A DNA stretch of 64,000 nt, from assembly GCA_963920665.1 (NCBI GenBank), contig OY987270.1, positions 12,302,019-12,366,018 on the forward strand. The letters run 5' to 3'. The notes beneath the pieces were generated by a model that made no database searches, had not been told where the DNA came from, and saw only the letters and a list, made by a program, of their open reading frames with translations. Origin of the DNA: Straminergon stramineum. Lineage: Eukaryota; Streptophyta; Bryopsida; Hypnales; Calliergonaceae. Shown piece after piece: positions 39,501 to 64,000 of this stretch. Position 1 is the first letter of the stretch. Each line of letters opens with the position of its first letter. Made by a program: the position numbers and the translations under genes.

Positions 39501-39990
39501 GGGGCGCATGCGGGTGTAGGCAACCACGGGTAGGGCGACTTTGGGTTTAGGCTGGTGGGCGACCGCAGGTGTCGAGTATGTGGCAAGCTGCGAAGCAAAG
39601 ACACGAAGTGAGAACCCAAAGAGAAGTAACGCCCCACAATTACCCGCGGTCGCCCCTAAAGACCCGCAGTTGCCTCCCAAGGGACCTGCACGTGCCCCCA
39701 AAGACCCGTAGTCGCCTCCCAAGGCACCCGCACGCGCCCCCAAAGACCTGCAGTCGCCCCCTAGAGGACCTACACGCGCCTCTGAAACCGTAGTCGCCCT
39801 CCAAAAGACCCGTATGCACCCTTATACCCGCAATCGCCCCGTCTAGGACCCGAACGTGCCCCTAGACCCGCAATCGCCTCCTCGGACCCGAATGCGCCCT
39901 ACCAGACCCGTAGTCGCTTCCCGAGATCCGTGCGCGCCCCCTGGAGACCGCGGGTTCAACCGGTGGTCGCCCACCCGCACTCGCCCCATG
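39501..39990 (+). repeat. 13-bp CpG array 1, upstream of the 40208 gene
   Basis: From 39640 to about 39990 the units ACCCGCGGTCGCC, ACCCGCAGTTGCC and the variant CCCGCACGCGCC recur every 17-25 bp on the plus strand, pointing toward the gene at 40208. A smaller set in reverse orientation and one forward GGCGACTTTGGGTTTAGG block (39534-39551) lie at 39501-39570. Frames across the array give Pro-Arg-Ser low-complexity peptides and are not genes. Confidence 0.8.
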
Positions 39991-40207
39991 ACCAACTCTC
40001 ACCCACACTCACCCCACCTACTTATCCACTCGCCCAAGACCTTTTGGGCACCTTTCATTGAGGCTTCTTGTCTTGTATCCTTTAGTGGCTACATGCGTGA
40101 ACCTTGACTATTTACTATTTATTACATTCATCCACCCTTCTTACCTTACTAGTTGTGGACCACCTAAACTCCCAAACGAGTTTTTTGAGCCTTAGACACG
40201 ACAATCA

Positions 40208-42703
40208 TTGATGGCCACTGGAGTTAACAATGCGAGGGCATTGCCTATCTCCGCTACTGCACAGACCGCTGGGGCATTACGAAAGGCTACCAAAGACAAA
40301 CATCGCAAGCGTTGGGGTACTATTCATCAGAAGCGATTGCACGTGCTCAATAGTGAAGCCCACCTTGCTTTTAAGGGTTGGAATGAAGAACCAGAGCCTT
40401 GGACAATACAAACCTGCGAAGACTACATCGAGTGGTGCCACATCGGCAAGTTCTTTCCTTTATGGCGTCATCATTATAATCGGCACACCAATAAGGCCAA
40501 CTTGAAGTACTGTGAGAATCCAACATTCCTTCAAAGATGCATTGAATTGTGGCAAGTCCTCTACAAAACTGCCTTTGTAGATAGGAACGAGGTCCCCCTC
40601 TTCCTTGCTAGAAGAGCATATGTTGAGGTCGCTCTAAACAAAGAGGTTGATTGGAGCACAATCAAGGGAAGTACGTATGTCACTCGGCCAGAGAGTGGTT
40701 TCATCCCAAAAAGAGTTCTAGCCTTTCCTGAGGGGGGACTTGGTCCTATTCGAAGTGCATACAAAATGCAAACCCCTGCCACTAAGGTTGACACTGAGGA
40801 GTTTGAAGAAGATGATAACTCTGATGGTACGCGCGTCTATAGGGTCATATGAATCGTGGAGCAATCTGTTTGCCCCAATGAGGTTCAAAATGAAGTTGTA
40901 GAAGGACCCGCGACATCCACGGGACAACGACCAAGGCAACCATTTAGAGTACGGTGTTCAACAACACGAGTGGGACCCGCACCGATTCCAACTATAGTTC
41001 CTAACCCATCGCTGCCAACATAGCGCACAAATGATGTCTTTGACTTTGGGCCCGATGAAGACACGGCTATGGAAGAAACTAACCGTGTTCCCATTTCTCC
41101 ATCAACAATGGGCTCAAGCCACGACATTATGACTTTGGCAAAAGCTCTGGACCTCCTCAAGACCAAAGATGTTGAAATTTCTTCACTACAGAATGAAATG
41201 AGGAAATTGTGATGTGAGTGTGAACAAAAAAGTACACTCATCTCTCAACAAACTACAGAACTGCAACGCCTCCGTGAGAAAGACCATGACACTTTCACTT
41301 TGTCGGATATGGATGACGCCTTTGTTGAGTAGAACCTCCAAAATGTGGACTAGGTTGTGGGGGACCTTACCAACCATATCCTTCAGCATTCTCCTCTTGC
41401 CAAGCGCACTAGACGCTCCCCCATCATTCTGAATACACTTCCTACTATTGTTACAAGATATACTACCAATGACACAATTGAACTCAATGGGACCCAAGAC
41501 TCTTTTTCGTTTCCTGTGGTTCCATCAATTATTCAATTGGAGAAAGACCATGGACTTCAAGAAGAAAATAAGATGCTTCGAAGAAAGTTGGCTGAGTTGA
41601 CTACCACATACTACCATTGGAAGGTTGCCTGCATTCTCTCCGTGGATAGATCCCAACAAGTTGCGAGGGAGCTAGAGAAAGTTTCTAGAAACTTTGTTGC
41701 AAATGCTCCTAAACGTGAGTATGGACTAATGTCATGGGCATTGTTGGAGGACATGTTTCCCAATAACATGTGCATGGTGGAATTGCCACAAAAGGAGGTC
41801 ATAGATTGGAGCAAAAATGGTTGGGACCACGAAAATCAAATGTCTAGCCACATAGAAGAGAAGAAATGAATGCTACTGTGGCCTAAGCCTGCACCTTTTG
41901 TTTTGGACCATACCAAATGCCCCATATGTCTTGAACAATTTGGCCCCGAAGGGGGTTGAGCACTAGGATCTTGTGCACATGTATAACACCCCCAATGTCT
42001 CATCACACAATGCTTGATTAGACGATGTTGTGTGATTTGTTCAGCACCATTCCATGATCGCCTGTATACCATGTTCAACTTGACAACGTACATGCCTCCT
42101 TCTTGGGAACACACACGTGATACTACAGCTGACACAACCTTGTGGGGCCGAGATTTGGTTTGGAGTTGGCGAGGAAGACAACATGATCAAGAAAAAGGAC
42201 TTGCTAGCTCGCAATTGAATTGGGAAACAGACCCAGACGAAATTGCTAGAGTTGCATCGAGGCTCATGGGAAAGGGGCCACAAAACGAAGGGAGGAGGGC
42301 ATTCTTCTTCCAATGTCTTGGTGGATATTGGGACAAGACCTCCTCAACCTTCAAGTGAGGTCCTCATCTGCAATGACACCGTTGGAATTTAGAAGGAGAA
42401 AGGGTGGCTAATCAAGATGATAGTGCCTCCCTAGAAGACTTGACTAGTATGGCTTACCTCGACTCTACATACGGACCATATTACCAAAGTCAAGCACTTG
42501 ACTACTTGTTGGAAGCACATTCTCTACAAACAAAAAGGACCCTCCAAGCTCTACAGGACTCCAACGTGTTGCAATCAATTTTGAAGGTAGACGGACCAGC
42601 TTCACGAACCTGTGCAAAGTGAAAGCTAGAGGTTGGGGAAGCATCGACCTACGAAGAAGGTGAAGGAAGTGGCTCTCAAAACAACCCAAATGTAATTGAC
42701 TAG
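40208..42703 (+). pseudogene. WC-KLFP domain protein with coiled coil and RING-H2-like end, broken
   Basis: One frame of 832 codons from ATG 40208 to TAG 42701, broken by about 11 in-frame stops (40850, 41021, 41210, 41330, 41351, 41867, 41957, 41984, 42356, 42374, 42620) but no frameshift. Residues about 30-160 carry the unrecognised domain shared with 43957-45429 and 53218-53859: EPWTIQTC, YIEWCHIGKFFPLWRH, RCIELW, KEVDWSTIK. The middle is acidic and helical with heptad-like stretches. At 41918-42040 a CPIC, CAH..HPQC and CVIC spacing fits a RING-H2 zinc finger, which in ubiquitin ligases binds E2 enzymes; it is interrupted by stops at 41957 and 41984. Its 5' side has array 1 but no clear copy of the 20-bp core block. 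All stops can arise by C-to-T or G-to-A changes. Confidence 0.7.
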
Positions 42704-43956
42704 ACATTTGTAGGAATCATGCAATTTAGCCTTACTTCCCATCATAATAGATGACAAGTAAGGGTTAGGTTTTAATTACACTATGTTTCTAGTTGTTTTG
42801 GCAAGTACGATGGAGTGGTTTAGGGTTTTCTTCTTTCATTCCACTTCTACGACTTCCTAGCATACCTATGTATGGCAATTCCATATGGCATTGATTTTTA
42901 TTTAATACTACCTTTTTTTCCTCTCTACCAAAGTACCAATTTCTAAAATCATATCAAGAATGATCTTTTCCAGTTCTTCCAAAAATAGTTTGTATGAACC
43001 AAATCAACAAAGCTCTTAAAGTTTAACTTTTCAAATTAATTTCACTTGCATTGAGAAGAAAACTAGGTCACTACTCACTAGAGTGGAGCATCATTGTCCA
43101 ATTGGATATTTCCTTTCATATTCTTAAAAATCGTGAGGTTCTAATTATAGGAAGCTTTTCCTCTAAGCTTTCAAGATACTTGGCCAAAGAAGGAATAAAA
43201 GGGGTTCAAATACAACATGCCCCTTTTCGTGGATGTTGACTTGTTGACTTCACATTACTATACCTTCAAATGGTTCACCCTGTCCTGGGAGGTCAAAATT
43301 TTGATTCATAAAAAACATGAGTGGGCCAACTTACATATCAAAACTACCTAATTCCTCAATATCCATTGTAATTTTCTTCAAATTACGCTAAAGCTAGAAT
43401 TCTAAAAAATCCTATATACAAGGAGGAACAATGAAGCAAATCACCCGAGACAAATAAGCCCAATAAATTTCCTCGATTAATATGGTATTTTGGGCATAAT
43501 CAGTTTTTTGTTCTCCACTATTCATATGAAAATCATTAATACAAGTTGTACTGTAGATTTCACGACGACATTCTCACAAAATAGTGAAAATACTATGTCA
43601 ACTTTTACAGTCAAGAATCAAGAACTTCCCATCAATCCCATGTTCCTATTCGATTGTAATTATGTGCGAGAATCCCATTCCATTCATCATACCATCACCT
43701 TCTCCCAAAACATGAGAGAGACATATTCATCCATATAGAAAAGTTGTAAGATCCAAAAATGGTGTGGCATTTTCTCCCTTCCATGCACACTACTAGTATG
43801 CCCACACCAATTTAACTATTCTAGTACAGACATTGCTTCAAGACACCATATACATTGTTTTATCTCAAAACATTGCATTTCTTTATAACACCATGATAGG
43901 CAAAATACAAAATAATCGTGGTGAAAGTATTTATCCTCATTGTATTCCTAGGTATT
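42704..43956. other. AT-rich spacer between convergent genes
   Basis: Lies between the 3' ends of the 40208 (+) and 43957 (-) genes. No gene, array or terminal repeat was seen. Confidence 0.5.
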
Positions 43957-45429
43957 TTATTTTGTGTTGAGGTAGTCCTTGAAAATGGGCTCCAGACCCA
44001 TTTGTTGTAATTCTGCATCAGACTTCCCTATGCTAGCTCTATTCCACTTATACCAATCCAAAAAAAACCAACTTTCTGCCCTCAGAGCTTTCAACTCCGA
44101 TACCATCAATGGTAATCTGTGCTCATGGAACTTCACCAACTTCTCAAGCGATGCTACTTCTCTAGCAACACTACCATATGTTGAGGAAGAAGCCAAAAGC
44201 TCTACTTTTGGAACGTGCTGGACGGCGGCCTCGTAGTATTTTTTCTTCTTCTCCATTATTTGAAGTTCTAGGCTTTGCCTTTCATTCTGTGCTTGCTGAC
44301 GTTTGCGGACAAGGGTTTCGAGTTTTGATTCCCATATCAAATAATGGTCCATTTTATGCACCTTCCCACTCTTCATTTCCTTCAAATACAAATCGTGATT
44401 TCTTTTGAAGGAATGGAAGCCCTTGTCATTCTCTTCGATGATGTTCGTTATGGCCTTCAACCGTTGCTTCAACACCTCTATGAAAGTGGGATTCATTTCT
44501 TGCTCCTTCAAAGTTTTCAATTGCACGTTCTTTGCACGCAATGCTAATTTTGCACTTTCTATTTTAGCAAGCAACATTGCCTCTTCATTTTCTGAATCGC
44601 TTCCTCCACCACTCCCATCAACCTCTCGCAAAACGGGGTCCACTCTCCTAGCCACCCCATCATCCATGCCTTCTTCATCCGTATCTTGTACTATGATGGG
44701 CTCTTGAGTTGATTGTCCACTTTGGTCGACTCCTACATCCACAGCCGGCCTAGATTCTTGTATGGCAACCTCCTCATCATCGCTGTGGAAAGAATATCCA
44801 TCGTATTCATAGGTGTGTAGATCAGAGCTAGAAGTCTCTGACCAAACCATGCTTTCATTGCCAACAAATGACTTCGCACGCTTCACCTTCGATAACATCT
44901 TCTTTACATCCACAGGTTCATCTGGCGGTAATATTTTTGGAGTCTCTGGAATGATCACAATAGGGACCTCCTTCAATGTTGACCAATCCACCTCCTTCTT
45001 CAACACATATTCAGCATACACCATTCTCACAAGAAAGAAACAGAAATTATCGTTTCGGTAAGTTGAGTCCTCCAAATACAAGTGCTTCCACACCTCACAA
45101 CATCTAAGTATGAAGCCCTCGTCCTTCGAGTATGCAAGATTTACTTTGTTTTGCTTCAGATGTTCTTTGTGCCGACACAAGGGAAATAATTTGCTAATTT
45201 GGCACCAATCCACATATTTGCAAACGGTTTTGTAACTCCAAGGCTCAGGTTCATTTCTCCAACCTTTAAATGCCTTAATCTTTGGATGGATCAAAATGGC
45301 CACATGCTTCTTGTGAATTTTACCGGACTGTTTCCGACCCTTGTCGCGGATGAGCTTCATCTCTTGTCGTATAAGGCATTTGATTGTGGCAGGCGTCAAT
45401 GGTAGGGGCTCATTCTCCATAGTGCTCAA
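43957..45429 (-). CDS. WC-KLFP domain plus coiled-coil protein, intact, function unknown
   Basis: Open for 490 aa. I do not recognise the family. Residues about 38-155 are the domain shared with the 40208 and 53218 ORFs; invariant points across the three are EPW or DW, the WC(H/Q)I-K-(L/F)FP stretch, RH, NL-Y, RC-E and VDW-T-K. Paired Cys and His residues could bind metal but this is not shown. Residues 160-290 are a linker that becomes strongly acidic (DTDEEG, SDSENEEAM). Residues about 295-450 are predicted helical coiled coil rich in Lys, Glu and Leu. The last 40 residues (SWFFLDWYKWNRASIGKSD) may be a separate motif with a weak echo in the 57318 ORF. No signal peptide or membrane segment. 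The ATG at 45429 is the first in frame and lies 248 bp after the 18-bp leader block. No internal stop, unlike its two relatives. Confidence 0.75.
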   Translation of the reverse strand: MSTMENEPLPLTPATIKCLIRQEMKLIRDKGRKQSGKIHKKHVAILIHPKIKAFKGWRNEPEPWSYKTVCKYVDWCQISKLFPLCRHKEHLKQNKVNLAYSKDEGFILRCCEVWKHLYLEDSTYRNDNFCFFLVRMVYAEYVLKKEVDWSTLKEVPIVIIPETPKILPPDEPVDVKKMLSKVKRAKSFVGNESMVWSETSSSDLHTYEYDGYSFHSDDEEVAIQESRPAVDVGVDQSGQSTQEPIIVQDTDEEGMDDGVARRVDPVLREVDGSGGGSDSENEEAMLLAKIESAKLALRAKNVQLKTLKEQEMNPTFIEVLKQRLKAITNIIEENDKGFHSFKRNHDLYLKEMKSGKVHKMDHYLIWESKLETLVRKRQQAQNERQSLELQIMEKKKKYYEAAVQHVPKVELLASSSTYGSVAREVASLEKLVKFHEHRLPLMVSELKALRAESWFFLDWYKWNRASIGKSDAELQQMGLEPIFKDYLNTK

Positions 45430-45676
45430 TCTATACGATCAATTCTACTTGGATACTATGCCAAATATACCAAGCCTAAAACCTTGTTGTACAAACTTAA
45501 ATCTATTACCTCATGGTAATTCACATTTACAAATACATCAACATGAACATTTTCAATCACAATCAAGTTTCAAACAATTCGGCGTGATTTACAATCAATG
45601 GATGAAAGTGACATGAGGAGACATAGAATATCCTCCTCACAACACCCACCTCCCCTCTCAAGCCTGCAATTAGCCA

Positions 45677-46015
45677 CTTCCAGGTGGATAAAAGACAAGG
45701 CACAAAAGGGAAAGATGGGAGACTACGGGTTTAGGATTTGATTTTGTACCCGCAGTCGCCTCAGGGCGAGCGTGGCTCTGGATGGGGAGCGTGCGGGTCG
45801 GGAAGGCGACCGCGGGTCCAGGACCACCGCCAGCGACCGCGGGTGATGGCAACTGTGGGTCTGGGGGCGACTGCAGATCTGGGGCAACCACGGGTCTGGT
45901 GCGACCGTGGGTGAGGGGAACCCAAACTGGGGGCGCATGCGGGTCTGGCGCAACCGCAACTAGGGGCACGTGCGGGTCTGGGGCGACCACAGGTCCCAAA
46001 CCCCTGACCGCGACG
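45677..46015 (-). promoter_or_regulatory. Promoter cassette of the 43957 gene: array 2 and core blocks
   Basis: Reading in the gene's direction: 13-bp units (ACCCGCGGTCGCC and close variants, with CCCGCATGCGCCCC types) from about 46015 to 45770, then the inverted, TATA-like core block at 45760-45741 (GGCGACTGCGGGTACAAAAT), then 47 bp, then the leader block at 45694-45677 (CTTTTATCCACCTGGAAG). The same order occurs before the kinase and the 53218 gene. Promoter function is inference from position and repetition. Confidence 0.65.
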
Positions 46016-46324
46016 GCACATACCTTCACTGAATAGTGAAATTAGATTGCCTTAACAATTAGATTGACTTACCCCCAAATGAACCATGCAAAGAATTCAT
46101 ATTCAAACCCAAATGCATGCAAGTAGGTGATGTGTATGTACAATATTCAATATTTTGGGTCCAAACATGCACTTCACATTAAAAATAGTTTATACACTTG
46201 CATTGCTTTTCCCAAATGAGATGCACAAAAGGTGTCCAATGTTACTATTCCCGCTAGAAAACTATTACATCAAATCCTATGAGAGGACAGAGTCCCGAAA
46301 GACGAATTCGGGTGGTTTCATGAA

Positions 46325-47866
46325 CTATGGTTTACCCATGAGGAGGTCCACCACTTGCGCACATGTTGGTCTTTTGTTAACATCAGGATCAGCTAGTTCA
46401 CGTAACTTCATGGCAAAGTACTTTGATGACTCATGATTTCTAAATAAGTCCTTGTCGTATTCAACCATGTGTTCTATGTTCATGCGTTGGGTCAACTTTC
46501 CAATTGAATAAGAGTCGGACTTCACCGAATATTTGTAGGTCGCTTTCATCACATCTAGACTCGTATCTAAACCCTCTGGCCCAAACAAATAGAACAACTC
46601 TGGAGCTGCCCACCAATGGCCCATCCTCTCAGCATCAAGTTTTTCCTGTTTTTCATATCCAAAATACGAGGGAGCTCCTTCTTGAATACGACTTGCAATT
46701 CCCCAATCACAAATCCCAATGTTGATCTCTTCGTCCGAGAAGGGGGGATAATGCAACAATATGTTCACAGGTGACAAGTCATTGTGCAGCACCCCTGCAT
46801 TGTGCACGAGACTTGTCACATAAACCAGGGCCCACGCCAACTTCGCCTTGTATCTTCGAAAGAGGCTAATTTCTTTTTGTTGTTGGCCTATAAGTTGCTT
46901 GACCAACTTGATTTCATGCCATTCCGCATGCGACACCACCTTCTCATTCAAATGAAGCAACTCTTTGAAATTACCACCATTCCACCACAAAGTGTATGCT
47001 TCCATTGTTTGGTCATGGACAACTAGGAATTTAATAATGGCTGGATGATTCAACGGGCATACCAAAGCCTCCACTGACCGTTCCACCCTCAGATCGTGTT
47101 TGTTCCTTTGCTTTGACAATTTCCCCGCAAAATGTACATGCGCTGGGATCGTGGACATCCCTTCAATGCGTACCTTACGCACCTTTGCATATCCTCCTTG
47201 ACGGCCAAATCGAGTAAGTGGGACCACCTTGGCCTCTGAGTAGACCCACATGATACATGAACCACTATCTCTTGTAAATGCAGCCTTCAATGCATCCGTC
47301 TGCCACCCCATACCCCTAGCTTCGGACCTTGACAATCTTTTTGCTGCAATTTGCCACCAATCCATCTTCTCACGGAACTCCTGGGCCCTATCCGTTTCTC
47401 CAAATCCAGGCACTATAGGTCGCAACTCAAGCATCAACTTCTTGGTGTTGAATATACAAGTTTGTAGGCAATTGCCAATCCATGTTTGCCATTGGTTGAA
47501 ATACACTTCATCCACATCTGCATAGTCCGAAGATTCCTTGCATTTCCTTGTAATAAATTCCTCCAACTCATCCTTGAAGGATTGGATGCCTGCCTCTTTA
47601 TTTCTCAAGTATTTCCTCTCCAAATATTGTACACTTTTTTCCTCATACCATTGGAGACAAGCCTCATGCGCATAGGTTGTATATTGTGCTGGAGGATAGG
47701 TAGGGTCCTTATCGTGTGTTGTCTTGGACTTCTTTGTCTTGGATGGTCCGGCACCTCCAATTACCTCCTTGGTAGTTATATCTACAACAAATGTTGCAGG
47801 ATTATCAAGGTCCTTGTCCCAAGCCGATATCCGACCCGTACTACTTCCTTCCTTTGAAGTAGACAT
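46325..47866 (-). CDS. Atypical protein kinase with unique N-terminal region
   Basis: 513 aa from the ATG at 47866. Residues 1-210 match nothing I know (a low-complexity start, then Trp- and Cys-containing helices such as WQTWIGNCLQTC). Residues about 218-511 are a protein kinase fold: a Gly-rich loop GRQGGYAKV (221-229), candidate beta-3 Lys249 (FAGKL), Glu266, catalytic loop HNDLSPVNIL (361-370, Asp363 and Asn368; Arg of HRD replaced by Asn), metal-binding DWG (387-389) instead of DFG, APE (421-423), Asp451 in SDSYSIG and Arg499. All catalytic residues are present, so activity is possible; loss of the HRD arginine suggests no activation-loop phosphorylation control. An in-frame ATG at 47995 would add 43 residues, but that stretch coincides with the leader block shared as untranslated DNA with other genes. 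No signal peptide or membrane helix is seen. Promoter array 3 lies upstream. Confidence 0.85.
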   Translation of the reverse strand: MSTSKEGSSTGRISAWDKDLDNPATFVVDITTKEVIGGAGPSKTKKSKTTHDKDPTYPPAQYTTYAHEACLQWYEEKSVQYLERKYLRNKEAGIQSFKDELEEFITRKCKESSDYADVDEVYFNQWQTWIGNCLQTCIFNTKKLMLELRPIVPGFGETDRAQEFREKMDWWQIAAKRLSRSEARGMGWQTDALKAAFTRDSGSCIMWVYSEAKVVPLTRFGRQGGYAKVRKVRIEGMSTIPAHVHFAGKLSKQRNKHDLRVERSVEALVCPLNHPAIIKFLVVHDQTMEAYTLWWNGGNFKELLHLNEKVVSHAEWHEIKLVKQLIGQQQKEISLFRRYKAKLAWALVYVTSLVHNAGVLHNDLSPVNILLHYPPFSDEEINIGICDWGIASRIQEGAPSYFGYEKQEKLDAERMGHWWAAPELFYLFGPEGLDTSLDVMKATYKYSVKSDSYSIGKLTQRMNIEHMVEYDKDLFRNHESSKYFAMKLRELADPDVNKRPTCAQVVDLLMGKP

Positions 47867-47973
47867 GGTCTTCTTTTGAAAAACGAGGCGTTCTTGACTT
47901 GAACTTGGAGAGAAAAATGGGCAAAAACTTCCCCTTCTGAAATCACCTTGGCCCACGAGCACGCATTGAGCCA

Positions 47974-48256
47974 CTTCAAGGTGGATGAAAGCCAATGCGC
48001 AAGACCAAGAATGGCGACCGCGGGTCTGGGCGACCGCTTAAGTACCCGAGGTTGCCTTGGGGCGCGTATGGGTCTGGCGCATGCGAAACGGGTGACCGTG
48101 GGTATGGGGCGACTGCGGGTATGGAGGCGACAGCGGGAGGGGTGACTGCGGGTTGGGGTGACCATGGGAGGGGGCGACTACGGGTTCCAGAGGTCCTCGC
48201 GGATGGAGGCAACCGTTCATGTAGGGGTGACCATTGGTCCTAGGCGACCGCAGGTC
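47974..48256 (-). promoter_or_regulatory. Promoter cassette of the kinase gene: array 3 and core blocks
   Basis: Reading toward the kinase: CpG-rich units from 48256 to about 48060, the core block at 48056-48037 (GGCAACCTCGGGTACTTAAG), two more array units, and after 46 bp the leader block at 47991-47974 (CTTTCATCCACCTTGAAG), 108 bp before the start codon. The spacing equals that of the 53218 gene exactly. Confidence 0.65.
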
Positions 48257-49289
48257 CAAAAAGGATGGACCATCCTAAATAATAGCTAAAAGAAACCTTC
48301 ATATGGGATAGAAACATTGGCATTACAACTTCCCACTTCTATTTTGCTTGCTTTCAAATAAAATCATAAGACCACTATGATATGGTCTAGAATGTGGAAT
48401 TAGATTTTGAGTTCTTTCTTTATGGTTCCAAATATATGTCTACAATGTTCACAAAGAAAAAAAAGGAATGGGCCAAAACGGAAAAAGGGAATCAGAAATA
48501 TAAAAGTACAGGACATGATTGACTTCTATTGAAACAAAAAGGGAGAACTTGAAATACTTACATTCTACCATTGCATAATAATATTATAGAGGTTACTTTA
48601 GAAGCATCCAAAGTCTTTTTCTAATTTCTTCAAGTTTGCTCTACAGTGAACATGAATTCGGCTTTTTTACACAACCCTAAATCCTTTTGGGGTGGAAGAG
48701 GTCATAAATGCAAACATACATGTTGCAGAGCACATTGAAATGAACAACAAATGAAGCATATGCACATCAAGTCAAAAGATTGTTGTCCTTGATGAAGACA
48801 TTGTTCAAACCATCAAGGGTGTTTGAATGCTATCATTTCTTTTTTTTGCATGCCAATCCTTCAAAATTGGTCACCCACAAGATACAAGAAATTTCTAAAT
48901 GGACAAGTGGGACACCTTCGAAATCATCCTTCTTAGACGTTGTAAATTGTTAAGTTACAAATTATAGATGCGGTCTTCGGAAGTAAACTTTCCAAGGAGG
49001 ACCACCCCTTCTTACACTACAAAATTTACAAGATGATGAGATGCTCTTCTATCCTATATAGAGAGTTTCTATCATTTATGGACTCAAAATTAGCCACCCC
49101 ATCATTTAAAGATGAAGAACCATCACATGCAAATCCTTATACAATGTACGATTTCTTTGGCTAAGTATTCTATAGAGGACATTCAATATGTTCTTGTAAA
49201 AGCTATCCAAGGTTTACTTCAACTTTTGTATACAAAAAATAATCTCTCTCCAAAGAGACAAAACGTCAAGTTTGGTCACTCCGATAGGT
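48257..49289. other. AT-rich intergenic DNA, nothing recognised
   Basis: No ORF, array or terminal repeat seen. Confidence 0.5.
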
Positions 49290-49490
49290 GAGCAGGAAAC
49301 ATCATTTGATTCCCAAGATTTCGGAGATGTACTATGAGGGTTGAGACGGTCAGTATTGAATTTCGAACGAAGATGTATGAGGTGCAAGGTTGCACCACAT
49401 ACATTTCCGTCCGAAATTCAATACTGATTTCTTATAACTCTCATGGACCATCCCCTAGACCTTGAGAATCAAATCACCTTCCCTCCCACA
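49290..49490. repeat. About 200-bp foldback element
   Basis: The arms TCAGTATTGAATTTCG (49350 region) and CGAAATTCAATACTGA (49416 region) pair perfectly, the inner arms ATGTATGAGGTGCAA/TTGCACCACATACAT pair nearly so with almost no loop, and the outer arms around CATTTGATTC (49300 region) and GAATCAAATCA (49467 region) pair with mismatches. A MITE or a hairpin small-RNA locus; no target duplication was found. Confidence 0.65.
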
Positions 49491-49508
49491 TACCACAGGG
49501 AATTAGCT

Positions 49509-49625: not shown

Positions 49626-49739
49626 TGCATCACCCGAAGATGCCTTGAAGACCCCAAGCTCCTAATGAAGTAACTTGTTTTTGGATGTTAAAAGTTGAAC
49701 TCGTTATACTTATTAAAACTTCTTTGGATTGGAAGGCAC

Positions 49740-53859: not shown

Positions 53860-54237
53860 GGGAGTATAAGTATGTAGAATTTTTCAAAATTCTTAATAGG
53901 CAAAAAGGAGTAGAACCCTCTTAGCCTATACATCTCCCTAACACTGAACGGATGCTCCAGGTAATCCGTAATGGAATCTAGGACGGATCCAGATTCTGGA
54001 AACCCAGATAGCGACAGCCTACTATCTAGACTTCCGGTCTAGAAATAGGGACCCATTATGGGTGAACGGTCCGCTTTACGAACGGTCGGTATTTTGACGG
54101 GCACTTAACCCCGCCACTGCCATTTCCTCTTCCTCTTTTCCCACAACTATTTTGTGCGTGCATAGTTGAGTGAAAGAGTGGTGAGTTAGTGCTCAGGTGA
54201 GAGGTGAGAGCGTGTTCAGATTTTAGAGTGGTTTGAA
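53860..54237. other. Leader of the 54238 ORF, boundary of a probable insertion
   Basis: Composition changes to short GGATCC/CCGGA-rich text that continues through the next ORF. The boundary with the preceding gene is unresolved; no target duplication was confirmed. Confidence 0.35.
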
Positions 54238-56224
54238 ATGGCGAAGGGAGATATCCGGAAGACTTTGGTCACCGGACGGATGGTTTGTCCAACCATTCCG
54301 GAAAGGCCGAGAGACAGATCCCAGCTAGAGGATGACCTTAGTGAGATAGGGTGTGTGAGTCTGTTCATGCGGCCGTGGACCGTAAAGAACGACCGGATGA
54401 TCCAAGAGTTGATAGTAGGTGCTTCCAACCAGTATGAGTTGACGGTGAGAGGAAGACCTCAAATCTGGATTGATGAAGTCTGGGCTAGGGTTTACGGATT
54501 CCCAAAGAAGGGATCTAGTTTAGCATCCCGCACCGACAAATTTACTGTCGGGAAGTTCAAGAACGCTGCCCATTCTAGGGAAGGGTATGCGATTAGTGAC
54601 TGCCTAGATCCACGACATAGGCATGTCCTAGAGTTCCTCATCCCTATCCTATATCCAGAAAAGCCTACCTGGGTTACGGTTACGGTAGCAAACACCATAT
54701 TTGGTGCTTTTGAGGATAGACCAGTGAGTTGGGGCAAGGTGATTGCATCCATAGTCGCCAAATTTGTCGCCAACGTGGGGAAGGGAAAGACAATCCCCAT
54801 AGGGCCGTATCTTTTCCATCTGTATCACCACGCGGAGCTGCTCAGCGATGCGGAAATGGTGGAGTACAACACCGGAGCGACCATCCTCCAATACGGCCTG
54901 ACGGAAGAAGTGACAGCGAAGCAGCCGCCAGTGGAAGAGGACAAGGATCCGGAAGAGGACGAGCAACCTTTGGAACGGAGGCACCGGAAGTCAACGGATC
55001 CGACATCCCAGGGAAAGCTTCTGGCTCAGCAGAAGATCTCTGAAGAGGAGGAAGGAAGCATATCTGGCTTCTTCAAGACCGGATTCAACTGGGTACTCCA
55101 AGCGCAAGAGTACCACGAGATCCTCATGGATCTGCTCAGGCGGATTAGTCGGGAGTTGAAGGTCGATCCCAAAGACATCCTTGACGCGTTGAAGAAACTT
55201 CCAAATCCGGAAGTCCTCGAGCGGAAGGACAAGTAGATCGTCGCCCTGGAAAAGGAGAAAGCGGATCTTCAGGCGAGACTCAGCTGGGCGCAAGGCGAGA
55301 TGGTTGCAACAAAGCAAAGGGAGAAGGAAGCCCTCCAGGTGCTGAAGAATTTATCCGGCTTGGTAGACAAGCCGGCCGATATGGTAATGAAGGCGGCTCT
55401 AACCTAGAGCCGGTTGACCGAGGAAGGGCACCTCACAGGATCGAAGGTCATCCGAATACTCATGGACTTCTCCTCAAGGATGGAGCTCACACTAAAGGAG
55501 ATGAGGCAGCTGCTTGGGCGGATCGACCCCGACCGGGTAATGGACTTCTCCAACTTTCCGGAGATCCATTTCGACACAGAGACACCCGTCAAGTTCACCG
55601 CCTCAATGCCGCTACCTTCAAAACCAGAAGTTCCGCGGGAGACTCTCCGGTACTCCAAGAAACCTTTCTCCAAGCAGTTGGAGAAGACAATCCGGGGAAG
55701 CGTGAAGTTAGCACCCGAGCCAAGCACGGAGCTGGATACAAGACGAGAGTTGGCGCCTCCCGAGATTACGGTTTCTCCACCCATCCCAGTCTTCAACCTT
55801 CCGGAAAAGGAGCCGCTGCCGACACCGTACACCCAAGCCCGTGGCCAACTCATAGAACGAATCGGGGGGTTGTTGAATCCGACTCGGTCTCATCCGGAGG
55901 AAATCGAGCATATGGTGGAGGAGCAGCAACCAAGGAAGGAGATCGAGCCCATCGTGTTGGATGAAACGTCTCCAGGCGAGGAGAATGAGAGGGAGATAAC
56001 TCAGATTGAGAAATCTGAGGAGGAAGAATACCGGATCGGATCGGAGGACGACGACGAGGAAGAAGCCGACTACTCTCCTCCGGAAATCTGGAAGATATAG
56101 ACCCGGGCGGCATTGCGGATGACCCCCATCAAGGCGACCCCGAAGGCAATACCAAGGGCATCTCTGCGAACACCAGTGAGTCAAGGCAGGAGCAGCCAGA
56201 AGAAAGCGCAGAAGGCGAAGTAGT
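54238..56224 (+). pseudogene. Gag-like or plant-mobile-domain-like protein, unrecognised, broken by three stops
   Basis: One frame of 662 codons from ATG 54238 to TAG 56222, with internal TAG at 55234, 55405 and 56098. Residues about 20-225 are a compact globular region (LFMRPWTVKND, VRGRPQIWIDEVWARVYGFP, LIPILYPEKPTWVTVTVANT, GPYLFHLYHH) whose layout recalls plant transposon-associated domains such as the mobile-domain and PF20167 types; this is a resemblance, not a match I can confirm. Next come an acidic segment, helical coiled-coil stretches (VALEKEKADLQARL), Pro-rich segments, an acidic DDDEEEADY stretch and a short basic tail. No CCHC knuckle, protease or polymerase follows. The three stops are TAG in positions compatible with Gln. 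Codon usage is GC-richer than its neighbours. Confidence 0.6.
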
Positions 56225-57317
56225 TAGGAGCTTTCTTAGGCAGATAGGATTTTGATTTTGAACCAGATCCAGATTTCCAAGGGTGGGACCGGGTTCCGGA
56301 TTTGTAGGATCTCACTTTCCTGGATTTCTCAGGAAGTCTGTGAGTGGTCACCTGGATTTCCGAGCGCCTTTTTGGCCTTTTTGGCTTTGAATGTTTTGTG
56401 GTTTTAAGTGTGAGGAAGGTTTGTTGCCTCTCATTCCATCCTAGCATTCTAGTTTGTACTTTGTCATCCTTATTTTAAATCTGAGCCACTAAGTGGACCC
56501 TCAGGGATTGATCTGTTGTATATCCATCTTCCTTGTGTTTCCTTGTGAGTGTATGAAGTATAATAGAGGAGGAGGAAAGGAGGAATCCGAATCTGAGGGG
56601 ACTTGGGTCTGAGTGTTGAGGAACATCTGTTACGTAGTCTAGACTAGTGAACTTGGTCTTGAGCACGTGTCTTTAAACTCCTGGAACGGGAATCCGATTA
56701 GGAGTGGTATGGGTGCAGATCCGGAATACTAGGGAGGGTTCCGTGTGGAGATAAGCAACCACCAGTGGAAGAAACCCCATATCACTTACCAGAAGGTCAG
56801 CCAAACCCTAGGATCAGTTTAGCGAACGACTTACAATCCTTACCTTAGTTCCAGTCTCGGTTGGTCTGTTGTTGTAGTGGAGAAGGCTTGTTACGGATCT
56901 GTGTGACCTGCTTTCCGGGTTGGCCATCCGGAAGGTTGTGAGACTGTCTCCAGTCAATCCAGCACAGTAGTTGGTCTAAGCATGTGTTTTGTGGTTTTGA
57001 GAGAGAAGAAAGAGTGAGAAATACGAGTGGTGTGTCCCTACCCCTCTATACAATCAAAGGTGGACCCTCTGAGGGTTAAACAGAGGTACCAAAAACCAGT
57101 GTTTGTGAGTGAAGTGACAGATCCGAAATCCGAAAACAGAGTGAATCCAGATTGGATTCTGGAAAGTTAGAGCTTAAGTTGGTGGAATGGATAATTGAGA
57201 CTTGCAACAACATACTAGAATCCCCTGGGACGATATTTCGAGTTAGTTTACACGTTTGGGTGTTGTAAATGGTATTTACCGCACGCTAAGCGTACGACAA
57301 TATCCGAAGATGGCAAC
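56225..57317. other. Non-coding 3' region of the gag-like unit
   Basis: Same GGATCCGGA-flavoured composition as the preceding ORF. The last 150 bp (CCCTGGGACGATATTTCGAG at 57221 and TTTACCGCACGCTAAGCGTA at 57274) recall the ends of some plant Ty3-type LTRs, but I could not find a second LTR copy on the left. No gene. Confidence 0.35.
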
Positions 57318-58265
57318 ATGCAATGGACCACACCAACGGATGGAGAACCTTTTATGTCTATGGAACTGATAGGGGTCTGTCGTCCCGAAGATGACGAAGT
57401 GTTCCATTACGTGCAAGCTTGCTTGCAAGAAATTAATGAAGATAGGTTGGATGGGGAGAGTGAAGCTGAAGAAGAGATTCCTTTGACCTTGATGAATTTG
57501 CCTTCCATGGAAGGATTGCGTGAAATGGAACAAGAACATCAAGGTGTACTTGGAGAAGACAATAAACGGCGGACGAAAGAATCCTATAAAGTGGAGTTGG
57601 AGATGCTTTTAAAGGATCTTGAAGAAAAAGAAAGGGAGTGTGAGATCATTGAGAAGCGAAGCGCACAAGAGATTCAGGTTGAGGATGTGGGCACCCTCAA
57701 AGAACTAATTCAAGCTAGACAAACTCGTTTGGCAGCCCAACAAAGAGAAATGGAACAACTGGAATAATTTTACCTCAAGTTCAATAAGGGAGAAGATGGA
57801 GGTTCCAGTTCAAATGTCAATCTTGTTATGGATGAACGACTTCAAGCAATAATGGGAAAATGTAGGATGGAAGAAAACAACCTTGCCATTGAAAAAGGAG
57901 GTGTGGAAAAGGCAAGATCGACATTGAACCGCTTGAAGGAGATGAAGGATGCAGATCCTATTGACCAGTCGTTGCAATCGGATTCATTGTCTGTGGATGT
58001 TGAAGATTTGTCATCCACTACGGAAATAGAGAAGTTGAAGATGAAGTTAGCTTCTGTGAAAAGATTGGAACAGAAGTTGGAGGAAAAGATGTCGTGGCCG
58101 AAGGCACACATTAGGTTCATGTCATTGTTCAAGAAGTGGTGGATCCAAAATAAGATGTGGAACCATGACCTGACTCTTTTGAAGAGGGAAGAGAGAGTGG
58201 CAAGAGCCCAAATAGAACTGGAAAAGAAGAAAAGCAAAGAACAAGGGGAAATGGATGGAGTATAA
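57318..58265 (+). pseudogene. Coiled-coil protein related in layout to the 43957 product, one in-frame stop
   Basis: ATG 57318 to TAA 58263 in one frame, split by TAA at 57765 into 149 and 165 codons (compatible with a Gln codon). The start segment (MQWTTPTDGEPF) resembles the region after the family domain in 53218 (YVWSTSTGELDF) and 43957 (MVWSETSSSD). The rest is long helical coiled coil with Lys/Glu/Leu heptads, and the end (FMSLFKKWWIQNKMWNHD) echoes the WYKWNRAS end of the 490-aa protein. So it may be the 3' part of a fourth family member whose 5' domain was lost to the preceding insertion. No array lies directly upstream. Confidence 0.5.
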
Positions 58266-59134
58266 ATTAGGTGGCTCTTGTTTCTTTTATGACTATGTAC
58301 TTCTTCCAAGATATATGAAGAAAAAGGCTTTGTCCTTATTTTTGTTGAAATACAAGAATGTTTATTTTTATTTTTTGTGTATGAAAATGTGATTGCATTT
58401 GGATCCAAACATTTGAAATTTTGACAAATTTTGATGATTTCAAGTTATGTGAATGTTAATTTCTTGTTAAATTTGTGTAGTGTTTTAAAAAAAAAAGAAT
58501 TCTAGTAACTTTGAGTCTACACAAAGAACCCTCAATAAATTTAAGCTGCATCATCCATGAGAGTTTCAATATAAGTTCATATGGTTGCATTTTTCTGTAT
58601 TTTAACATATGGTTTGCACATATTGTAAATGACAACATTCCCATGCCCTTCACCTTGTGAATGTATGGACTCTTCTTGAGATTTATAATTTGGGAAAAAA
58701 CATCATAAAAAGGTACTCTAAAGAATACTTTTGGACTTGATAGAGAAATGGAAGTTATACATTTTGAGTTGTGGATTCCATGTATATGGTTTGATCAACC
58801 AATGTTTTCTCCCATTTTTCTTTTTAATTTGAAAGAGAAAGTTCTTAATTTTTTTCACATTTGAGTACAAGCTAATTCTATTTATTTTTTATTAAGTTTG
58901 TTGGAATGGATTTGAAATGAGTTTCCCTTCATGTGGTTGTTTAAAAAAAAATTGCATTCTTTAAGTCTATGACCATACTCCCGAAAATCTTTTTTTGAAG
59001 TATCTATAAATACCACGTCAAACCCTTGGATAGCGTTTAGGGTTTAATAAAATCTCTATCTAAACTAGGATGACTTTCATCTAGAAACTCAACGATGGAA
59101 CGCTAACGAGATAACAAAAATGGCCTTGGGTCCT
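58266..59134. other. AT-rich spacer with a TATA-like site
   Basis: No ORF. CTATAAATA at about 59004-59012 and a GTTTAGGGTTTA telo-box word at 59036 precede array 6 and resemble the pair at 50959/51011. Confidence 0.4.
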
Positions 59135-59628
59135 AAGCGTAAGTGCGGTCGCCCTTCAAGTACCCGAAGTCGCCTCTTGTGACCTGCGGTCACCCCCTTC
59201 TACCCGCAGTCGCCCCCCCTAGATCCGCAGTTGCCCCCCTGGACCTGCAGTCGTCCCCTTCTTCCCGAAGTCACCCCCCTCTAGACCCGAAGTCGCCCCC
59301 CCCCCCGACCCGTAGTCGCCTCTTTCTACTTGCATTCGCCCCCCCTTCCACCCGCAGTCGCCACCTGGACCCACACTCGCCCCCCTTACCCGCAGTCACC
59401 TCTTTTTCGACCCGCAGTCGCCCCCCTTGGACTCGCAGTCGCCCTTTCATCCGCATGCGCGCTCCTAGTGCAAACCGTCGACCCGCAGTCGCCCACGAGG
59501 CGAGTGCGCCTGTTATGAGGTCGCCCGTTTCTTGCACGCATTCTGGCTCTCAGGGGGCGACTTGCGGTACTAGAAGGATGGCAGTATAAAGCTGAAGGCC
59601 CGGACTTTGGTTTTCACCTTGCTTCAGG
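59135..59628 (+). promoter_or_regulatory. Promoter cassette of the hAT transposase gene: array 6 and core
   Basis: Plus-oriented units (ACCCGCAGTCGCC and variants) from 59175 to 59520. A core-block relative GGCGACTTGCGGTACTAGAA stands at 59556-59575, with GTATAAAG, a good TATA box, at 59584-59591 and a TTTTCACCTTGCTTCAGG leader-like block at 59611. The start codon is 225 bp after the TATA. At the distal end a core block points the other way (59174-59155, GGCGACTTCGGGTACTTGAA), so the array is flanked by outward-facing cores. Confidence 0.6.
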
Positions 59629-59815
59629 GATGAACTCATGGCTTAAATCTTCAAAAGAGGCTTTTTGTAGATGTTTGGGTCTTTGGAGGGCAACGACTTG
59701 GTTTGCATGGTTTAAAAGACCGTTCAAAGCAAGTGGCTTTGCCATTCTTTTTTCTAAATCAAGGCTCTGATTCATATGATAATATTGTTTGAAGAACTCA
59801 TAGGCGAGGAACAAT

Positions 59816-62800
59816 ATGGCTAGTCGGGGTGAGGGGAGGAGGACTACCATTAACGATACAAGGAGAGCCACGAAGGAGTGGGACCCTTGGTTGGTTGTAG
59901 ACATTGACTGTCAATTTGCGGGAAACACACGAACATGTGTTTTCTGTGGATGGACCTCCGTATTTGTACGAAAGCGGCCATTCTATCACTTTGGATTTGG
60001 CGGCAGGACTGCATCGGAGCGATGTATGAAAATCCCATGGGCAGTATTGCAAAAGTTTTGGACTTGTGGTGGGGTTGTTCCGAAGGAAATGAGCTTTGAA
60101 CAAATGCATGAGGATGTTCCAGAATTTGATGTTGTAGATGAGACTGTGGTTGAGCCTATGTTGGAGGGGGATAGGGAGAGGTCAGAGGAGCCTAGTGCTA
60201 CAAATGAACCAATGCTCCCTATTATAGATTCAGTAGATTCTACTCCTCAAACAATTTTGAGAAGGAGGAATAACCCTTCCATTTCTAGGCAAACTAGCAT
60301 GGATGAGGCATTACAAAGTAGCACGAGAGCAAAGTCGGATACCATGTGGGCTTCTTTCTTTTATGAGGCTAGCATCATGTTCAATGTTGCGCGCCATCCT
60401 ACCTTTGTGAAAGTAGTGAAAGAGACAGCGACATCAGGACTACGATACCAACCGCCCTCATACAATGCTTTACGTACAAGAATGATAGAGCCAAAGAAAG
60501 AAAGTGTTTCTAAAATGGTCACTGAGCGGACAAAGCACTCTATCAAAGTTTACGGAGCGACTATCTGTTCGGATGGTTGGTCTGATACTAATAGCCATCC
60601 ATTACTAAATTTAATGCTCGTGTGTCGTGCGGGGGATGTGTTTCTTGGATCGGTGGATACTATGGAGGAGAAGAAGGACATTGCGTACACAACCAATATG
60701 ATGGCGCAATACATAGAAGAGGTTGGCCCCAAAAACAATGTCCAACTATGTACAGACAATGCCACTGTCATGACAGGGACTTTGAAGGCATTACAAGAGA
60801 AATATCCTCACAAGTATACCCAAGGATGTGTAGCACACATTTTGGACTTGCTTTTAGAAGACTGGGCAAAGGATGTTAAGGTGACGAGAATAGTACAACG
60901 TTGTACGCAGATAGTAAAGTACATCAAGAGGTACCATTCCACATTGGCTCTCTTCCGAAAGTACTCCCCGGACAAGGCATTGCGAATGCCTTCTAAAACA
61001 CGCTTTGCAGTGAACTTCCTCATGATATCACGTGTAGTGGAGTGCAAGTCAGCATTGATTCGAGTGATAATGGATGAGACATATGTGCAATTTGAGGCTA
61101 GTTTGGAACGTCGCCAAAATGGAGATATATTGAGAGCGCGAGCCACTATAGCGCGGGAGGACATTCATTCAGAATCTTTTTGGGTGGAGTGTCAGAATTT
61201 TTTGCACATGGTGGAGCCCATCATTATTGCTCTTTGAGTGTTTGATGGGAAAGCCCCGGCAATGCCTAAGGCTTGGTTGGTTATGAAGACTCTTCAAGAG
61301 CACGTGTGGAGCTTGAGAAACGAACCTTTTTTTCTGAATGATGAAACTGCAACGAAGTTTGAAAGGCAGTTCGAGGCTCGTTGGAAATTGATGCTCACAG
61401 ACCTACACTATGTAGGGGCACTCTTAAATCCTTTCTTGATTGAAGTAGGAACCTTTTGTAACAACGGTGTGGCCAAAAGAGCCTTAAATCGGGTGCTTCG
61501 AAAAATGAGCGAGTCATTGGGATTATCATACATAGAGGCATTGCAGGAGCTCACGCAGTTCGAAGAGAAGACATGTCCTTTTGACCCCTTAGAAGAGGCT
61601 CCTGATATTACACAGTGTAAACTAATGCCTCATCAATGGTGGAATCTTGTGGGTGCTAATGTTCTCCCAAAAATTGCAATGAGAGTTCTATCTTTGACGT
61701 GCTCAGCATCATCATGTGAAAGGAATTAGAGCATGTATTCGTTTGTGCACAATAAAGTGTGAAATCGCCTAACCACATCCAAGGCGGAAGCATTGGTGTA
61801 TATCTACACCAACAGTAAACTTGAACGTGAGAAATGTGGACACAATCCTGCAATGTTCTACGAAAAGTACCTTGTGGATGGAAATACCTCGGAAAAGAAT
61901 GAGGAGCCATTAGGTACAGGATCATCAGGGGATGGCGACCCAGTCAGAAGGGCTCGAGCTAATGAGAACATTAGGTTGGCAAAAGAGCGCCTACGTGGAA
62001 ATATTTGGACAGGACTGATTCGTAGAGAAAAGAGTCCTCCAGGGAGATACAACTATGGAAATACATTTACAGCTCAGAATAATAGGTACTACTCTAAGGA
62101 GGAGGAGGTTCAACGTGCACTGCGAAGGCCCCCGCAACCCTACGTCTCTGCTAGGGATAGGAATGTACCTCCTCCAATAAATTCATCGCCGACGAGGGCA
62201 AGTAGTCCTGACAACCCCAATGAAGGCATAAATAGTCCAATGCTCATAAGAGCTGAGGAACCAAGATCTCCAAATGTTGTAGATCAGGGTTCTACAAGGG
62301 TAATGAACCTACAAAGTGCCGCTCGAGTTGCTAAGGTAAATGAAAGGCAAGAGGAGGCAACACCGCCAACAGACGTCGAAGATGTTGTGCATACAAGCAT
62401 TCCACTTTCTCCATTACGGAGCCCCTTAAGAACAGAAAATGTGGAATATGATTCAGACTTGCCCTTGCAAGTTGTTATGAACTGGAATTGTACGGTGCCC
62501 TTAAGTGGAGGAGGAAACGCAAACAATGCTAGGGCGACTAGGTCTATACCAACCCATGCGACTAGGCCGCCCTTGCATCATAGTCCTCTTAGGGCAGTTG
62601 ATAATGAAGGCCATGCTTCAGCTCCGCTACCCACTCAACCCTCCTCTATTTCTGGCCCTAGAGAATCATCCTTGCTCATGCATGAAGGCACAAGAGGACA
62701 GAAAAAGCGATTGAGGAAGACACAGGAGAGGCTACAAAGAAATCCCAAACGACAAAACCATGTTGTCCAAAGATTCATCATGGGTGAAGCCAATTCCAAT

Positions 62801-63094
62801 CGAAACATCGAGCAATCCAGTAGAGGCGGATGACACCCTACATCCAACCTTGATGGAACAAGAGATGCATTGAGGTTGACTAAACGATTGGTGCAAACTA
62901 GCGGCGATGGCGTCGTGGATACTGAAGTGCGGAACGTGAACCCAGAGGTAGAACATGAAGTGCAAAATGAACGAGTACGAAGGGAGGACGACGAGAATGA
63001 TAACCGTGATGATAATGAAACGGTGGAGGAGTCGGATGATGATTCTGACTCTAATGGTGATGAGGTGCCTAGTGATTACACATTTTCACCGTAA
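59816..63094 (+). pseudogene. hAT-superfamily transposase (BED-like finger, DUF659, C-terminal dimerisation), broken
   Basis: One frame of 1,093 codons with stops at 61235, 61727, about 61760 and 62831. Residues about 35-70 hold a BED-like zinc finger (CVFCGW, then FYHFGFGG and C). Residues about 180-345 are DUF659, with acidic residues in CSDGWSD and CTDNATV that fit the hAT catalytic positions. Residues about 600-655 are the hAT dimerisation region, with QWWNLVGANVLPKIAMRV, LSLTCSASSCERN and then NRL. A long Ser/Pro-rich and finally acidic tail follows (ESDDDSDSNGDE), as in plant hAT-like genes. The first three stops replace residues that are Arg, Trp and Arg in the family. No hAT-type terminal repeat was found nearby, so it may be a gene-like relic rather than a mobile copy; its TIRs do not correspond to those of the 29555-33777 element. 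Confidence 0.88.
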
Positions 63095-63719
63095 CTTTAT
63101 AAATATAGATTTAGAGGTAGTGAAGTGGTAATGTGATGCTTTTGCATAATTTTGGTATGTTGAAGTTTTCCAGCTTAAGTTCATAGGCAAATAGCCTATA
63201 GATGAGTTTTGTGTAGTATCTACTTTAGTATGAAAGCATGATAGTGTTAGAATTACAAAGTTTTGTTCCATGTCTTTAGTGTGGACTTCTACAGGTATAG
63301 ACGTGGAGATCTTAACAAAGTTCATGGAAGTACAATTGAAGTAGAAGTTCATTTATAAGATTGGGTCACTACTCTATTAGTGTGTACAACTTATAAATAC
63401 AATAATACTAATTATCCTTACTTTTTTCTTGTTTTTTTATCTATTTTTGGTGTAATTATTATATCCAATTGCGATATTGGCTTCTACACTTCAATAGGAG
63501 TAGAAAATTAGAATTAGAAATTTCCAACCATATGTAATAAAAACATGTAGAACTCGGAGGCTCCTATGAATGAGTGAATGACCGCAGAATGTAAAGTACT
63601 TAATTTAAGGCTTAGGAGAATGCAATGGCACATGGAAATTGAAGGATCCTAAATTGTGAGCAAGATTGAAATGGTTGTTATATCCATGTTTGCAATTGCA
63701 ATGGCACATGAGGTTGCTC
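63095..63719. other. 3' flank of the hAT gene, nothing recognised
   Basis: AT-rich; no gene or paired repeats seen. Confidence 0.5.
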
Positions 63720-63950
63720 TTAACCTTTAACGAATAGACTAGTGAGTATGGAAATCATCTCCAATGGAACTCTATGATGTGATGTACTTGCCTTTCCCCT
63801 CACAAAAATACTCATTTTTGGCATGAGGACTCAGTAAGATCTCTCTTTTGGAAATTGGGACCCAATTTTCAAAGATGGAAAATTGCATTTATATCGTATA
63901 TTAGAAGTTCTTATCGTCCACGGAACAAAAGAAATTCCTTGCGTATGGGA
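63720..63950. mobile_element. TTAA-starting MITE, CCCTTAAA family (copy 4, partial)
   Basis: TTAACCTTTAACGAATAGAC at 63720 and family words (ATGGAAATCATC, a degenerate GATGTACTT segment, ATCGTCCACGGAACA) match 11398-11619. The right terminus is not clear. Confidence 0.5.
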
Positions 63951-63972
63951 TAAAGCCAAGATCACCCTTTTC

Positions 63973-64000
63973 CTTACACCCGCGGTCGCCTTTACACCCT
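63973..64000 (+). repeat. Start of 13-bp array 7
   Basis: ACACCCGCGGTCGCC appears at 63976-63990 in plus orientation and runs off the window. A further gene unit may follow beyond the end. Confidence 0.6.

Follow-up and report, generated by a model that had tools for sequence, protein, structure and literature searches.

The 64,000-nucleotide stretch of the Straminergon stramineum genome analyzed here (the window; C8:12302019-12366018 in an assembly of 326 Mb and 59 contigs) contains genes preceded by CpG-dense arrays of a 13-bp unit, ACCCGCGGTCGCC. These arrays belong to a single family of hAT-type transposons, whose full form mostly measures about 20.4 to 21.8 kb, and we hold this to be virtually certain. 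The copy in the window, W, is a hAT-type transposon of 25,006 bp that extends from 39318 to 64323, ends 323 bases beyond the window, and is flanked on both sides by an exact 8-bp duplication, ATTATACA; its LE terminus lies at bases 302 to 323 of the stretch adjoining the right edge of the window (L029). The termini of the full form are the terminal inverted repeats (TIRs) CAGGGTTGTTC.../CATGGTTGTTC.... From the other terminus, RE, the element reads as follows: an outward-reading array, G1 behind its array, G2 and G3 in the opposite direction, each again preceded by an array, the array G4 without an open reading frame (ORF), G5 and the transposase gene G6, each behind an array, and a second outward-reading array next to LE. 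The large form thus carries five single-exon genes, of which three encode WC-KLFP proteins (one with a RING-like finger), one a protein kinase, and one the hAT transposase. The initial annotation of this DNA had offered a transposon carrying such genes as one of two explanations for the arrays, and indeed, a hAT transposase, terminal repeats, 8-bp duplications, and many copies with a constant order of genes were found.

With up to three mismatches allowed, the unit matched the window 86 times, and 85 of the matches fell at the seven places at which arrays had been reported (the remaining one is at 17144), whereas block-shuffled windows (n = 10) gave 4 to 14 matches each. The unit clusters are at 39503-39985, 45718-45994, 48013-48255, 49746-50804, 52636-53013, and 59141-59493, with a single unit at 63978. 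Counter-oriented units amounted, in this order, to 5 minus of 16, 1 plus of 11, 1 plus of 8, 0 of 22, 1 minus of 13, and 0 of 14, and the orientations assigned initially hold as majority directions with 8 units contrary; five of these belong to the first cluster, which opens with four minus units at 39503-39571. A search of the whole genome, which had been proposed as a check, returned 4785 + 4655 = 9,440 matches when up to one mismatch was allowed, versus 44 + 50 = 94 for the reversed pattern. Among the exact matches listed (at least 100, all on contig C1), most clusters show minus units on the left and plus units on the right; the exceptions are a lone plus unit at 11114226 ahead of a minus group and cluster b, which is minus only. 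Nine unit clusters from contig C1 (a to i, 200 kb in all) were read. All sequence read contained 763 units, and 679 of 719 neighbor pairs had the same orientation. Spacers vary in length and sequence, with spacing peaks at 17, 22, and 64, and the flanks are poorly conserved; helical phasing of the unit spacing at 10.5 bp was not seen (0.043). The CpG observed/expected ratio was 0.73 to 1.08 in the arrays; four genes had 0.52 to 0.65, and the left part of the window had 0.56. If the arrays were mere CpG-rich tandem repeats of drifting copy number, located near genes by chance, one would understand why they diverge by about 10% between copies, compared with about 3.6% for the other noncoding parts. 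However, the same place and direction relative to the genes recur across the copies read, and the cores stay while the spacers vary, which makes such repeat noise very improbable.

Clusters a, d, f, and i repeat the gene order of the window, and b, c, e, g, and h are arrays without genes. A terminus was visible in eight of the nine clusters as read; for f, the left end listed lies 1.9 kb outside the stretch. Copy d (C1:7509489-7530036; 20,548 bp) has the duplication GGTCAGGC; W and a are 94 to 96% identical to it over blocks of at least 3 kb, and W is longer than d mainly by a 3,485-bp insertion in G5 and longer repeat blocks. Target site duplications (TSDs) were exact in six of nine insertions (W, d, b, c, e, and g) and agreed at 7/8 positions in h and at 5/8 in both i2 and a. 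Copy a (C1:571253-593041; 21,789 bp) has both ends, and the 5/8 agreement of its flanks is unexplained and was not counted. Copy i2 (C1:20720491 to about 20740397) is inserted within the G2 frame of an older copy, with the flanks CATCTGTG and CATCCGCA; at that site, G2 of W has CATCCGCG. All three differences in the i2 duplication are C to T or G to A at CpG, and judging from these sequences, the target read CATCCGCG and CpG decay accounts for the 5/8 agreement. Between the nested copies (i2 and its host copy), the kinase genes differ at 2 sites over the 337 codons compared. Short copy g splits an ORF judged Copia-like by eye, and this insertion, like the one inside another copy's G2, points to past movement of the family.

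The family is large. RE (29-mer, at most three mismatches) was matched 298 times genome-wide and LE (22-mer) 490 times, versus 0 and 1 matches for the reversed control patterns. In the 100 LE and 100 RE matches listed, on which all pair analyses rest, there were 41 facing pairs within 60 kb versus 2 wrong-strand pairs. Their sizes are bimodal, with 15 pairs at 3.1 to 5.8 kb and 24 at 16.6 to 24.4 kb (17 of the latter at 20.4 to 21.8 kb), plus two outliers of 12.2 and 47.5 kb. A scored kinase lay inside 10 of the 24 large pairs; two of the other 14 were partly read, and both contained G2 and kinase DNA, with one kinase frameshifted and one incomplete. The kinase and transposase counts for the genome are lower bounds. 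A scored kinase was found divergently upstream of 44 of 90 scored transposases (36 of them at 7.2 to 8.9 kb; other geometries, 3), and an RE among the matches listed was found on the expected side of 32 of 84 scored kinases (29 at 6.3 to 7.2 kb; other geometries, 3). Intact single-exon frames with upstream arrays would also suit a cluster of host genes that have one class of promoter in common, with the repeats spread by gene conversion and no transposon involved. That explanation is refuted by the target duplications, and with the defined ends, a copy within another copy's G2, and the fixed size near 21 kb, its probability is close to nil. Nothing pointed to an integrated virus either: the kinase and G2 had no relatives in viral contigs, and G2 had none in plasmids.

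The initial annotation had described the genes as being of three unrelated kinds. Three kinds are present, but G1, G2, and G5 share the N-terminal WC-KLFP domain (39 to 44% identity over the stretch compared), and the five genes are thus not all unrelated. The domain gave no significant match in Pfam or PDB (best PDB profile E value, 0.77). G1 contains 10 in-frame stops in W and is a 740-codon open frame in copy d, where its length differs by one base from that in three other copies; its RING-like finger matched zf-RING_11 below the curated cut-off (E = 9.9e-4) and RING finger 24 in PDB (E = 2.5e-4). The ORF at 53218 does lie behind its array but is only the first part of G5, which is split by the 3,485-bp insertion and resumes to about 58265. 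The insertion contains long ORFs without a Pfam match and has, by eye, the ends TTGTCG...CGACAA. A genome search with the kinase G3 scored at least 84 copies among 787 candidates, with identities of 90% or more throughout; 77 of these 84 were exactly 1,539 bp, and 25, W's copy included, were stop-free. For the transposase, with the first 473 residues as the query, at least 90 copies of 804 candidates were scored (at least 89% identical), 27 of 90 were stop-free in the queried part, and four stop-free ones sit in frames of 1,094 to 1,096 residues. G6 matched DUF659, which we take to be linked to hAT transposases, above the curated cut-off; the hAT dimerization domain PF05699 reached 15.2 bits (cut-off, 21.4) in a fragment that stop codons interrupt in W. 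The C-terminal transposase fragments 61763-62830 and L017:7425-8756 had no domain match in the profile scan, and Rfam and tRNA scans gave no match. The coordinates are compiled in Table 1.

Table 1. Features of the window with positions (window numbering), strand, and basis
Feature	Position	Strand	Basis or remark
Giant hAT-type element W	39318..64000 in window, ending at 64323-equivalent in L029		Termini and exact TSD ATTATACA
Left 8-bp target duplication ATTATACA	39310..39317		Right copy just past other end, in L029
Terminal repeat RE, CATGGTTGTT...	39318..39346	+	3 mismatches to other copies' 29-mer
Four end-proximal units, outward	39503..39571	-	Unit scan
Array 5' of G1	39640..39985	+	One unit counter-oriented
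G1	40211..42431	+	WC-KLFP domain, middle without family match, RING-like finger
G2, WC-KLFP protein, 487 amino acids, open	43957..45420	-	ORF and domain comparison
23-bp core at G2, 21/23	45672..45694	-	Common to G3, G5
Array 5' of G2	45718..46015	-	Unit scan
G3, protein kinase, 513 amino acids, open	46325..47866	-	Pfam Pkinase, 1.2e-12
23-bp core at G3, 23/23, reference	47969..47991	-	Core comparison
Array 5' of G3	48013..48256	-	Unit scan
G4, long array without ORF, ~98-bp higher-order period	49746..50804	+	Unit scan
213-bp tandem repeats beside G4 array	51325..52387		Matched in short forms
Array 5' of G5, ends at TATTTAAG	52636..53013	+	Unit scan
23-bp core at G5, 20/23	53066..53088	+	Core comparison
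G5, WC-KLFP gene, split by insertion 53816-57300	53218..58265 (about)	+	Insertion absent from copy d
Array 5' of G6	59141..59493	+	Unit scan
G6, hAT transposase, ~1,092 codons, 4 in-frame stops in W	59816..63094	+	DUF659, 2e-32
Start of LE array, outward	63978..64000	+	Continues in L029 ahead of LE terminus 64302-64323
Second hAT-like element	29555..33777		TSD ATCCCCCC, 55 CCGTCCGCC-like units

At least four units within 1 kb upstream, pointing in gene direction and outnumbering opposite units, precede 21 of the 24 gene copies read, and in the remaining three, that distance contains 0, 2, or 3 units; the arrangement upstream of, and in the direction of, ORFs that had been described for the window recurs in the copies read. 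Since the 24 gene copies share ancestry, they count as independent evidence only at the level of the ancestral element, in which all five genes have an array. The gene-proximal unit, where present, lies 147 to 335 bp ahead of the ATG. Downstream of their arrays, G2, G3, and G5 have a 23-bp core in common (21, 23, and 20 of 23 positions; next-best match in the window, 17). Without gaps, G3 and G5 agree at 67 of 112 positions, a figure to be compared with 53 in the best among 2,000 shuffles, and a gapped alignment of the G2 and G3 upstream regions gave 69% over 117 bp. TATA-like sequences were seen by eye near the gene-side array ends of G3, G5, and G6. The other explanation offered initially, a shared regulatory cassette spread across genes, stands inside the element, with one array per gene (5/5) and the core in three genes. 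As had been implied, no ORF lies behind the array at 49740-50825. A telomere-like AACCCTAAACCCT repeat directly follows this G4 array at 51012-51038.

In all five short copies read (3.4 to 5.2 kb), sequence from both RE and LE is kept, as is the G4 array together with the adjoining 213-bp repeats, and they contained no match of at least 150 bp to G1-G3 or G5-G6. Copies b, c, e, g, and h have the ends CAGGGTTGTTCTGTCGAAC... and ...GGAACAACCATG in common, from which e and h deviate by point differences; the 8-bp duplications of the five copies are TTGATGAG, AAAGGAGG, GAAATAAG, GTTATCCA, and ATATTTTC/T. Their longest aligned blocks are mutually 75 to 91% identical, and because of this, we consider the short copies an old lineage, possibly derived from one founder deletion. 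The presence of the 213-bp repeats in these gene-less copies would allow for a non-coding function.

What the arrays do can be read in more than one way. They might be subterminal transposase-binding repeats only, which spread inward by duplication, with no regulatory role for the internal ones. The retention of end arrays in the short copies would fit this, and so would the precedent of CACTA elements, whose subterminal repeats are bound by an element protein (PMC2613891). On the other hand, the internal arrays are at least 5 kb from the ends, are upstream and in gene direction in most gene copies, and come as near to the ATG as stated above, which renders this explanation rather doubtful. 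Conversely, the arrays might be promoters or enhancers only, perhaps as CpG islands that resist methylation, with the TIRs alone recognized at the ends. The orientation toward the genes, the CpG content of the arrays relative to the left part of the window, and the downstream core would be in line with such a role, but the outward arrays at both termini have no element gene behind them and are kept in the gene-less short copies; we consider this unlikely.

The best explanation overall, and probably the correct one, is a hAT-type element with the arrays as its parts, which would serve both as promoters and as end-recognition repeats. The 13-bp units would be putative sites at which a factor encoded by the element binds, either a WC-KLFP protein or the transposase; the arrays that precede genes would act as self-regulated promoters or enhancers beside the TATA-like sequences, and the end arrays would be subterminal recognition repeats, as the TNPA sites in En/Spm. 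One bound factor would then couple gene expression with end recognition. For the dual role of the arrays as such, in gene regulation and end recognition, we see roughly even chances. The kinase and the RING-like protein may modulate the transposition machinery or oppose host silencing, an unlikely suggestion as matters stand. A wider proposal would be a regulon on a transposon: the element's WC-KLFP protein would bind the arrays, activate all five genes as a set, and label the termini for recognition by the transposase; in every giant hAT family, a CpG-dense unit particular to that family would correspond to the family's WC-KLFP protein, with motif and protein coevolving and families insulated from each other, and the kinase and RING-like protein would act against host silencing. 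This is tentative and, in our estimation, possible without being likely.

Several observations speak against the arrays being promoters and end-recognition repeats of one regulated element. The conservation of the unit is partly circular, since the scan required at most three mismatches to the consensus. G1 and G6 score 14/23 for the core, which is background, and the core is thus present in three of five genes only; ungapped agreement of G2 is weak, with 45/112 for G3 (p 0.045) and 43/112 for G5 (p 0.26). The structure model of the WC-KLFP domain is poor (pLDDT 52), so that DNA binding is a guess, and the retention of G4 in the short forms may reflect a single founder deletion. The second element described below has arrays of mixed orientation, and rejoining its flanks restored no longer reading frame. 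Finally, the genes themselves appear to evolve near neutrality between recent copies. Plain NG86 ratios (33 pairs, four genes) ranged from 0.29 to 1.15 and were mostly below 1, with two above 1 and one undefined, but a neutral expectation taken from the element's own noncoding spectrum, applied to W versus d and a, removed most of this signal, and selection on the cargo is not clearly evident among recent copies: the corrected ratios were 0.87 to 1.15 for G2, G3, and G6, and 0.61 (p 0.019) and 0.70 (p 0.07) for G1. Near-neutral coding change between copies is expected after recent insertions. It is only the distant relatives of G1 and the kinase that suggest constraint on the cargo.

These relatives belong to a divergent family, within a G1-like gene of which copy d is inserted. 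The G1-like gene is 35% identical and keeps most RING residues; the kinase-like gene is 32% identical in the kinase part and 23% in the N-terminal part and keeps most kinase motif residues, HND and DWG among them. Both copies carry stops. The two genes (L018:1-2213 and L031:2721-4487) stand head to head, separated by a stretch with two TATA-like sequences and with GGCGTGGACG-like units that are CpG-rich. Weak terminus-like matches (5 to 8 mismatches) occur in L018, L019, and L023.

When the surroundings of the window's other CpG-dense repeats were searched for hAT-like termini, one candidate emerged, and none of 30 shuffles gave any. This second element of 4,223 bp has the TIRs CAAGGTTGACAG/CAGGGTTGACAA and an exact TSD; its 55 CCGTCCGCC-like units (at most one mismatch), in both orientations, are the window's other CpG-rich arrays. 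It is separate from the first element and, by its ends and duplication, appears to be hAT-like. Elsewhere in the window, LINE-like ORFs were noted by eye at 27507-28403 and 33961-36699, followed by a poly-A-like run near 38250, and fold-back inverted repeats lie at 38771-38947 (84%) and 49304-49474 (77%). The DUF659-type hAT, the LINE-like and Copia-like ORFs, and AAACCCT repeats would suit a plant genome.

hAT elements typically have 8-bp TSDs and TIRs of 5 to 27 bp (PMC12506042), and Tol1 and Tol2 are 4.4 and 4.7 kb long with a transposase (PMC10175614). Like the hAT superfamily (Ac/Ds, Tam3, Tol2, and Hermes), the present family has 8-bp duplications, short TIRs, a DUF659 transposase, and short non-autonomous derivatives, and its ends, duplications, and transposase make it a hAT; its size of about 21 kb, its five genes, and the layout with one oriented CpG-dense array per gene depart from the hATs known or found. 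CACTA elements have short subterminal repeats bound by the element protein TNPA (PMC2613891) and include giants, namely soybean Tgmt* of 20.5 kb and Chondrus families of 16 to 20 kb with 4 to 5 ORFs (PMC2613891; PMC6431247). Subterminal repeats at both ends and a large size are shared with En/Spm; the CACTA repeats are described in the cited texts as subterminal and not as one array per gene. CACTA membership was rejected: the termini are CAGGG/CATGG with an 8-bp duplication, versus CACTA termini with a 3-bp duplication. The algal giants KDZ (about 30 kb) and Sola-1 (21.5 kb) represent DNA transposons of 20 to 30 kb, some with accessory genes (PMC12477816); unlike the present family, they belong to other superfamilies, and the excerpt consulted does not mention per-gene arrays for them. 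ToxhAT/ToxTA of wheat-pathogen fungi, a 14-kb cargo element, was once classed as hAT, was then found with a TA duplication, and is proposed to be non-autonomous and Tc1/mariner-like (PMC12506042); therefore, it is not a giant hAT. Starships are tyrosine-recombinase elements of 27 to 393 kb with few copies (PMC10175614; PMC12506042). The present family is likewise giant and cargo carrying, but it has a hAT transposase with at least 90 scored copies. The DUF3435 tyrosine recombinase that Starships have as their first gene was not found among 10 ORFs of the window and 4 further ORFs scanned, and Starship membership was rejected. Pack-MULE and Mutator elements have long TIRs and duplications of about 9 bp; with short TIRs and an 8-bp duplication, the element is not one of them.

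Giant multi-gene DNA transposons are thus a known kind, from CACTA, KDZ, and Sola-1. A giant multi-gene hAT with per-gene arrays was not found in the literature searched, in which coverage of subscription journals was limited, and such elements may nevertheless have been described. Eukaryotic DNA transposons as described to date are mostly small and carry one or two genes. In the family described here, five genes, each with an array, have stayed together in many copies of about 21 kb; with it, the giant multi-gene transposons would come to include members of the hAT superfamily. Moreover, its organization can be read from sequence, and it would allow one to ask how a transposon controls several genes simultaneously and how CpG-dense control repeats fare under methylation, with the short forms, the long forms, and the second element with its different unit as natural controls.

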